A stretch of DNA of 64,000 nucleotides. Origin: Leptolyngbya sp. FACHB-8 (lineage in GTDB: Bacteria; Cyanobacteriota; Cyanobacteriia; Elainellales; Elainellaceae). Below the pieces are notes generated by a model. It made no database searches. It was not told the origin of the DNA and worked only from the letters and a program-made list of their open reading frames with translations. Shown here in pieces: positions 12,516-14,424 of this stretch (its first letter is position 1; each line of letters opens with the position of its first letter). The DNA lies in NCBI RefSeq assembly GCF_014695575.1, contig NZ_JACJOO010000068.1, positions 1 through 64,000 of the forward strand, in the 5' to 3' direction. The position numbers and the translations under genes are program-made.

Positions 12516-13157
12516 GTGGCAAAACGAGAGCATTTGGCATTATTCAAGCGGGATGTCATTCTGTGGAATCGCTGGCGCGAAAAAAATGCCAAAGTCAGAC
12601 CCGACCTCACCCATGCCGACTTTAGTGGACAAGATTTACGCGGCCTCGACCTGAGCCAGGCAGATTTGATGGAGGCAGATTTCTCAGACGCTAACTTGAT
12701 CCGCACAAATTTCATGGAAGCCAATTTGAGCGGGGCGAATCTGAACAATGCAATTCTAATGAAGGCTGAACTCAACAATGCAGTTCTGCGGGGGGCCAAC
12801 CTGAGTGATGCAGATCCATCCAAAGCCGATCTGAGAGATGCAGATCTGCAAGGAACTCAGATGATTAATGCTGACGCTGAACAGGCTAATGGGGTCGGAG
12901 CAAATTTGAGCAATTCGGACCTGACAGGCTCCAATTTTAGGAAAGCCAGTCTCATCCGTGCCAACCTGAGCCAGTCCGATCTGAGCAATGCTGATTTCAC
13001 AGAAGCCGTCCTGGTACGCGCAAATTTGCAAGGAGCAACGCTCACAGGCAGCAATTTCACCAAGGCCAATCTATCAGGGGCCGATCTAACCGGAGCCGAT
13101 CTGACAGGTGCCATTCTCAAAGGGGCAACCATGCCCAATGGCGCTATTCACCAGTAG
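12516..13157 (+). CDS. Pentapeptide-repeat protein
   Basis: The 213-residue product has a short basic N terminus (MAKREHLALFKRDVILWNRW) and then about 32 tandem A(D/N)LXX pentapeptides from residue about 30 to the end, such as ANLSGANLNNA and ADLTGADLTGA. Such proteins fold as a right-handed quadrilateral beta-helix. Start is GTG at 12516, with GGGAGGG upstream. There is one break in the pattern around TQMINADAEQANGVG (residues about 110-130). Pentapeptide proteins are very common in cyanobacteria and their functions are mostly unknown; DNA mimicry is known only for a few (Qnr, MfpA). Confidence 0.88.
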   Translation: MAKREHLALFKRDVILWNRWREKNAKVRPDLTHADFSGQDLRGLDLSQADLMEADFSDANLIRTNFMEANLSGANLNNAILMKAELNNAVLRGANLSDADPSKADLRDADLQGTQMINADAEQANGVGANLSNSDLTGSNFRKASLIRANLSQSDLSNADFTEAVLVRANLQGATLTGSNFTKANLSGADLTGADLTGAILKGATMPNGAIHQ

Positions 13158-13221
13158 ATAACAGGGCTTATGTAAGTCCTGGTACATGCTTATGGGTTGT
13201 AGTGTGCGGAACACACTACAA

Positions 13222-13353
13222 CAGCAATTCTCATTTTGAAATCAGGCCCGAAAACTGCGCGCCGAAGGCGCACAGTTTTCGGGCCTCAAAGCCAAGAGTT
13301 CACGCCCTACGGGCGTGAACTCTTGGCTTTGAGGCCCATACTGAGAATTGCTG
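13222..13353. mobile_element. 132-bp double-hairpin MITE-like element, copy 1
   Basis: The element has perfect 12-bp inverted ends CAGCAATTCTCA / TGAGAATTGCTG. It contains two hairpins: one with CCCGAAAACTGCGCGCC arms and one with CAAAGCCAAGAGTTCACGCC arms. It is flanked by the 9-bp direct repeat ACACTACAA (13213-13221 and 13354-13362). Confidence 0.9.
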
Positions 13354-13362
13354 ACACTACAA

Positions 13363-13494
13363 CAGCAATTCTCATTTTGAAATCCAACCCGAAAATAGCC
13401 CGCCTTCGGCGGGCTATTTTCGAGCTTCAAAGCTGAGAGTTCGTGCCCTTCGGGCGTGAACTCTTGGCTTTGAGGCCCATACTGAGAATTGCTG
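13363..13494. mobile_element. 132-bp double-hairpin MITE-like element, copy 2
   Basis: It has the same 12-bp inverted ends and length as copy 1, in the same orientation, flanked by ACACTACAA (13354-13362 and 13495-13503). Its first hairpin has different but still mutually complementary arms (CCCGAAAATAGCCCGCC) compared with copy 1. Confidence 0.9.
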
Positions 13495-13647
13495 ACACTA
13501 CAACCCATAAATACTGCGTCAGTACACCCTGTGATACACTAGAAAAGTTGTCTAAATCGCACATCCGGGCTTTCGGGTGTCCTGAGTATTAAATTACTCA
13601 GTGATACTGCCGGATGGAGGATAAACCCGAAAGGAGCGTCACAATTC

Positions 13648-14424
13648 ATGCCCGTTGTTTCATTGGCTCAACTTTTGGAGTCTGGGGTTCACTTTGGCCA
13701 TCAGACCCGCCGTTGGAATCCCAAAATGTCGCCTTACATCTACACGGCGCGTAATGGGGTTCATATTATTGACCTGGTGCAGACTGCTGAACTCATGGAA
13801 GAGGCTTACGACTACGTTCGTACCGCTTCTGAGGCTGGCAAAAAGTTTTTGTTTGTTGGCACCAAGCGTCAGGCCGCTGGCATCATCGCTCAAGAAGCTT
13901 CTCGCTGCGGTTCCTACTATATTAACCAGCGCTGGCTGGGTGGAATGCTGACCAACTGGGTCACCATCAAATCTCGCGTCGAGCGCCTGAAGGAACTGGA
14001 GCGTCGCTACGAGACGGGCCAGTTCGATCTGCTGCCCAAGAAAGAAGCCGCGGTACTGCGTCGTGAGCTGGAGAAGCTGCAAAAGTACCTGGGTGGCATC
14101 AAGTCCATGCGTAAGCTGCCTGATGCCGTCGTTATCGTTGACCAGAAGCGGGAGTACAACGCTCTGCTGGAATGTCAAAAACTGGGCATCCCCATTGTGT
14201 CTCTGTTGGATACCAACTGTGACCCCGATATGGTGGATATTCCCATTCCTGCGAACGATGATGCGATCCGCTCCATTAAGCTGATTGTGGGCCGTCTTGC
14301 CGATGCTATCTATGAAGGTCGCCATGGCCAGCTAGATGGTGAAGAAGACTTCGAAGATTACGATGGTGCGGAAGAGGACGTCGATTACGACGGTGACTAC
14401 TCCGAGGAAGAAACTGAAGAATAA
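13648..14424 (+). CDS. rpsB: 30S ribosomal protein S2
   Basis: The product (258 residues) starts [20 protein letters not shown] and has the S2 signatures [32 protein letters not shown] and [14 protein letters not shown]. After residue about 230 it has a very acidic tail ([19 protein letters not shown] and on), an extension seen in cyanobacterial S2. GAAAGGAG precedes the ATG. The leader (about 13510-13647) contains the hairpin CTGAGTATTAAATTACTCAG (13581-13600), possibly part of S2 autoregulation as known for rpsB-tsf operons. tsf follows at 207 bp. Confidence 0.97.

Follow-up and report, generated by a model that had tools for sequence, protein, structure and literature searches.

Upstream of the genes for ribosomal protein S2 and its neighbour tsf, the stretch of DNA analyzed here (the window; 64,000 nucleotides of Leptolyngbya sp. 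FACHB-8, contig NZ_JACJOO010000068.1) carries two 132-bp elements, E1 and E2, accompanied by three copies of a single 9-bp sequence. This raises the question of how two elements came to share one target site, that is, whether one insertion was doubled in place or the site was struck twice. We consider it about 80% probable that E1 and E2 are MITEs, non-autonomous and mobilized in trans by the cut-and-paste DDE transposase of a 1.42-kb cyanobacterial IS family with a 9-bp duplication and a Tn5-like predicted fold, and that an element of subfamily B arrived first, one of subfamily A inserted at its edge, and conversion followed later. In what follows, we describe the evidence for this reading and weigh it against the alternatives.

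Two elements within an older hairpin

A pentapeptide-repeat gene precedes the array and rpsB-tsf follows it, with 144 bp separating the end of the array from the rpsB ATG (Table 1). The tandem 132-bp elements, their perfect 12-bp ends and the three 9-bp repeats reported in the initial annotation are all present; E1 and E2 have the same orientation, perfect inverted ends CAGCAATTCTCA/TGAGAATTGCTG and a period of 141 bp. When the outer flanks are joined with one ACACTACAA kept, they form TTATGGGTTGTAGTGTG-CGGAA-CACACTACAACCCATAA, a perfect stem with a 5-nt loop. The stem had been given as 16 bp and in fact measures 17 bp, but the proposed insertion into an older palindrome is borne out by this rejoining of the flanks.

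Table 1. Features of the array and its flanking genes (window coordinates)
Feature	Positions	Strand	Remarks
Pentapeptide-repeat protein gene, flanking	12516..13157	+	PF00805 E 1.2e-51
Hairpin, left portion	13190..13221		left arm 13190-13206, loop CGGAA 13207-13211, first 10 nt of right arm 13212-13221; pre-dates elements
9-bp target repeat copy 1, ACACTACAA	13213..13221
E1, 132-bp MITE, subfamily A, ends intact	13222..13353	+	97% to L013 copy
E1 hairpin 1	13246..13284		loop GAA 13264-13266
E1 hairpin 2	13281..13337		27-bp perfect stem, loop TAC 13308-13310
9-bp target repeat copy 2, ACACTACAA	13354..13362
E2, 132-bp MITE, B/A mosaic	13363..13494	+	left 82 bp B, right 50 bp A
E2 hairpin 1	13390..13422		loop TTC 13405-13407
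E2 hairpin 2, imperfect	13424..13476
9-bp target repeat copy 3, ACACTACAA	13495..13503
Hairpin right arm, final 7 nt	13504..13510
rpsB (ribosomal protein S2), flanking, then tsf	13648..14424	+	PF00318 E 3e-98

A tandem array of elements of this class in Pseudanabaena sp. Roaring Creek (L132:6681-6989, NZ_LIRE01000258.1) is likewise situated a short way upstream of rpsB, ending 149 bp before its ATG as against 144 bp for the window array (13213-13503). Both the 9-bp repeat and the interior differ between the two, which are independent arrays in the same place.

The MITE family in the genome

A search of the 6.9-Mb genome that allowed up to one mismatch gave 193+202 occurrences of the end CAGCAATTCTCA versus 9+10 for a reversed control, so the element ends are not due to chance. 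At least 150 matches were obtained with a covariance model of 22 copies, and at least 140 full-length copies could be delimited by both ends, 114 of them exactly 132 bp long. Among 140 copies, the flanking 9-bp repeats are perfect in 89 and agree at 8 of 9 positions in another 30. The element ends and target length initially deduced from the window hold, with 119 genomic copies having a duplication of at least 8/9. A lack of other copies of the ends had been named as part of the observation that would speak for tandem duplication alone; instead, the genome holds the hundreds of ends and full-length copies counted above. Variants with one hairpin only, 82-96 bp long and likewise flanked by 9-bp duplications, were also found.

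The elements are short (132 bp, where MITEs measure less than ~600 bp), non-coding, numerous, bounded by terminal inverted repeats and flanked by a target duplication of fixed length, all features by which MITEs are recognized. A further such feature, ends common to an autonomous IS, was found in relatives and not in the own genome. The family is thus a known kind of bacterial MITE, unusual in its habit of inserting so that ends abut. It is absent from the sister species, where the ends occur only 1+2 times at 0 mismatch. The Rfam search gave no match above the gathering score, and a literature search with the end sequence returned unrelated matches only.

Some further observations concern the spread and decay of these elements. 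Contigs C14, C32, C48, C51 and C73 of the draft begin within elements, i.e., the MITE breaks the assembly. In a decayed element (L138:944-990), hairpin 2 has seemingly been swapped for an unrelated perfect palindrome, AAAAATGAAAAGCGCGGC ACTTCAT GCCGCGCTTTTCATTTTT. MITEs in other genomes (L085, L083, L099) have the same ends, quite different interiors and again two neighbouring hairpins, an architecture kept without sequence similarity.

E1 and E2 entered separately

E1 and E2 belong to different subfamilies and are only 85% identical. The nearest relative of E1 is a subfamily-A copy in L013 (97%). E2 is composite: 81 of its left 82 bp agree with a subfamily-B copy (L056:611), 49 of its right 50 bp with subfamily A (E1 and others), and the switch from B to A falls near 13444/13445, immediately before the loop of hairpin 2. 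Hairpin 2 of E2 is imperfect because its arms derive from different subfamilies. The partners of tandem pairs in the genome are likewise 64-85% alike, with their nearest relatives elsewhere. Since each element is closest to a copy elsewhere and the two resemble each other at only 85%, they represent separate insertions at one site and not a tandem duplication.

If slippage at the 9-bp repeats, or unequal crossing-over between them, had doubled a single insertion whose copies then diverged, the shared orientation and the exact 141-bp period in the window would be accounted for. Such an origin could apply to the Pseudanabaena pair, which is 91.5% alike, and the same odd right end in both L044 copies also fits it. 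However, the identities of E1 and E2 to copies elsewhere, the similar behaviour of the other pairs in the genome and the existence of three pairs in opposite orientation make it very unlikely; for E1/E2 it is refuted unless different family members later overwrote both copies.

The mosaic structure of E2 is also relevant to a third route, in which the A element was brought in not by transposition but through homologous recombination, or gene conversion, with the resident B (e.g., through a circle or a template switch). The B/A mosaic, together with the end changes common to both L044 copies, shows conversion between neighbours. A single-crossover circle, on the other hand, predicts B/A followed by A/B and a foreign spacer, whereas an intact A element, the local 9-bp repeat and B/A are seen, and opposite-orientation pairs would be left unexplained. 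We thus regard this route as highly improbable. Instead of local conversion, the insertion of an element that was already mosaic could lie behind E2, as in principle could an effect of assembly.

Abutment of elements in a 9-bp register

We then looked beside each of the 140 copies for the next element end at spacings of 0-160 bp. Eight junctions were found at 8-10 bp and at most one at any other spacing in this range; L044 provides a ninth junction. Because all spacings besides 8-10 bp are near zero, insertion seems to be directed to resident ends. For random landing with insertions confined to 15% of the genome, the Poisson tail is ~3e-12, a rough estimate from 340 ends and three allowed spacings that indicates the order of magnitude only. 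As a rule, a well-preserved partner adjoins one that has decayed or belongs to a different subfamily. Relative orientation could be assigned in seven of the nine junctions: it is the same in the window, L010, L023 and L044, and opposite in L024, L138 and L181.

The exact abutting arrangement, in which the 9-bp duplication of the resident is re-used, recurs. Outside this genome it was found in G013 (L083), in Pseudanabaena (L132/G151), whose array has three copies of CTTTAATAT, in a Chlorobiaceae MAG (L134) and probably in a Verrucomicrobia MAG (L133). A scan of 390 genomes with gaps of 0-30 bp gave 9 as the commonest non-palindromic spacing. The palindromic 9-bp spacers in G170, G255 and G272 were rejected as element junctions, being ordinary hairpins. 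At L063 near 1490 (G000:C86:47645), downstream of a tRNA-like sequence, an element lies within the terminal repeat of an older copy, and its duplication AATTGCTGT consists of 8 bp of the older end plus one base.

The contigs that begin inside elements would be compatible with an artefact in which the short-read assembler fused two different copies. A chimeric join would not give three identical 9-bp repeats and a perfect restored hairpin, however, and independent assemblies show the same arrangement, so that we consider this the least probable of all explanations.

Target choice and empty sites

A hairpin is touched by 14 of 125 insertions, but coverage by hairpins is raised to an equal degree at the insertion point and throughout the +/-100 bp around it. 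Contact with hairpins hence reflects intergenic location, where such palindromes are dense. The palindrome was accordingly rejected as a preferred target, and its use by E1/E2 is incidental. Many long perfect palindromes with stems of 16-36 bp, unrelated to the MITE, lie between genes (e.g., L001:1430-1490 and 2455-2540, L004, L006, L038, L141, and L166). The target consensus is symmetric and very weak (~0.1 bit per position or less), and among 119 sites no duplication sequence is repeated except that of the window.

These data bear on a hot-spot explanation, according to which the 9-bp sequence or the hairpin is preferred and was struck twice without any role of the resident end. The hairpin contacts and the weak symmetric bias would agree with it, but neither the flat hairpin coverage nor a bias of this size does, the window's duplication is the sole repeated one, and every re-hit is at a resident end. 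We therefore judge it unlikely, though the strongest of the competing explanations.

An empty form of the hairpin, which the initial annotation had proposed to look for in a related strain, was not found in the sister species and 40 relatives examined. Specifically, the hairpin motif is absent from the 40 relatives; the rpsB leader of the sister species is alignable only from about window position 13530, with no hairpin there, and the region of the window's upstream gene was not found in that species. Gene-internal insertions were sought as proof of empty sites, and there are almost none. Five hairpin insertions (L014, L015, L141, L166, and L205), in which removal of the element and one repeat yields stems of 19-26 bp, serve as internal empty sites.

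The source transposase

A search for an autonomous IS sharing the ends and the 9-bp duplication had been proposed; such an IS exists in related cyanobacteria and was not found in the own genome. There (assembly 99.5% complete), none of 7 PF01609 matches is a partner transposase, and a search with the transposase of relatives gave no match to the source family. In relatives, a 1.42-kb IS has ends of the CAGCAATTCTCA type and encodes a transposase of ~440 aa; of the 390 genomes of the class, 108 contain a match. Exact 9-bp duplications flank 11 fetched IS copies with identical or closely related ends (L103, L110, L111, L113, L119, L120, L122, L124, L126, L128, and L131). Where the ends are identical to those of the MITE, the duplications are CCTACTGTC (L103), GAGATTTAT (L110), ACCATCGAC (L111), and GCCAGATAA (L113). 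A 2.1-kb pair of ends in G013 (L082) was rejected as an IS, as it contains host genes. The sequences L081 (586 bp) and L087 (435 bp) have the same ends and retain pieces of the transposase gene; these internal-deletion derivatives could be steps from IS to MITE.

The transposase of relatives has an alignable D-D-E triad (conserved D127, D216/217, and E336/338). PF01609 matched 11 of 22 members weakly (best E 2.6e-5), the match to PF13808 was weak with the first transposase member under cut-offs, IS4/IS701 models gave only weak matches, and none of the curated family cut-offs was passed. In a confident structural model (pLDDT 85.7), the only significant fold match was to Tn5 transposase, which filled the top five Foldseek entries (E 1e-10 to 4e-9). 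The exact 9-bp duplications at the 11 IS copies fall within the 9-12 bp typical of the IS4 family. The IS4 signature Y-(2)-R-(3)-E-(6)-K, read by eye in the transposase alignment, is not present: R332 is nearly invariant and E336 invariant, but the Y position is occupied by G and the K lies at +8, not +7. The autonomous IS is a DDE, IS4-like element that passes no curated family cut-off. IS200/IS605 elements lack terminal inverted repeats and target duplications and use an HUH transposase; membership was rejected in view of the inverted ends and 9-bp duplications here and the DDE transposase in relatives; this, with the predicted Tn5/IS4-like fold, upholds the earlier assignment of the 9-bp duplication to a DDE group. 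Because the own assembly lacks a transposase of the family, we infer mobilization here from the relatives; the source transposase has presumably either been lost or acted transiently.

A possible course of events

Under our preferred reading of two transpositions, a subfamily-B element would have been the first to enter the hairpin, giving rise to the duplication of ACACTACAA. Insertion of a subfamily-A element would have followed exactly at the left edge of B, where a staggered cut over the same 9 bp would generate the third copy. The transposase or transpososome may recognize, or be tethered by, the resident terminal repeats, with the flank junction serving as the target. The positions of the junctions suggest such guidance by resident ends, since the target consensus is far too weak for a return to the same 9 bp. 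Gene conversion by an A element may later have replaced the right 50 bp of E2, and template switching would keep the internal hairpins near-perfect and flip their loops.

For the family at large, we see even odds that a Tn5-fold, cut-and-paste-type family sends a sizeable minority of its insertions (9 junctions among ~140 full-length copies in this genome) to the 9 bp flanking its own resident ends, giving arrays in which target duplications and elements alternate (duplication-element-duplication-element-duplication), in either orientation and in several phyla.

Internal hairpins

In an alignment of 22 sequences, 19 of 52 base pairs have changed on both sides with pairing kept. Double stem changes in 43 subfamily-A copies are of 13 kinds, every one of them Watson-Crick and 0 mismatched, and single-side stem changes are common. 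Each loop is found in either orientation, at close to 1:1 (TTC/GAA 30/22, TTT/AAA 27/23, GTA/TAC 33/27). Concerted changes of arms together with flipped loops are the footprint of replication template switching (PMC8794818), and both internal hairpins carry this signature. Because arms and loops fit this footprint, the covariation need not mean selection on RNA. As a set, the 114 aligned 132-bp copies form a naturally occurring archive of template switching at palindromes.

Relation to known elements and significance

IR-directed insertion is a property of IS911, IS30 and IS21, in which a new copy joins beside a resident terminal repeat at duplication-length spacing. These elements form copy-out circles with spacers of 2-4 bp, and to our knowledge register-locked insertion beside a resident end is known only from copy-out elements with such short spacers. 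The arrays described here share with them the joining beside a resident terminal repeat at duplication-length spacing, but the predicted fold suggests Tn5-like cut-and-paste and the spacer is 9 bp. Targeted insertion of IS911 is cited in PMC2909936 and PMC7780238. No description of register-locked abutment for a Tn5-fold element was found in the literature searched, which included few older primary papers. The resemblance to Tn5/IS50 (IS4 superfamily, DDE) lies in the predicted transposase fold (Foldseek E 1e-10, probability 1.00, TM ~0.5) and the 9-bp duplication; in contrast, identity is 14%, and the transposase of relatives passes no curated cut-off and lacks the canonical Y-R-E-K spacing.

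MITEs with 9-bp duplications are already known. MITEAba12, a bacterial MITE of 111-114 bp (PMC6382973), is likewise short, non-coding and intergenic, with perfect terminal repeats, 9-bp duplications and mobilization by an IS with the same ends. Unlike the window family, it has co-resident ISAba12 copies; the window family has other ends, no source transposase in the genome, two covarying hairpins and neighbours that abut in a 9-bp register, an arrangement that a text search of the MITEAba12 paper did not reveal. Nezha, a cyanobacterial MITE cited in a review (PMC10969869), and the Anabaena MITEs are likewise cyanobacterial non-autonomous elements.

The array in the window defines a large MITE family, unnamed in curated protein libraries, by its exact ends, target length and source family. 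If the proposed mechanism is true, a cut-and-paste-type transposase that inserts in this register-locked way would be a novelty, and one that lends itself to a simple assay.
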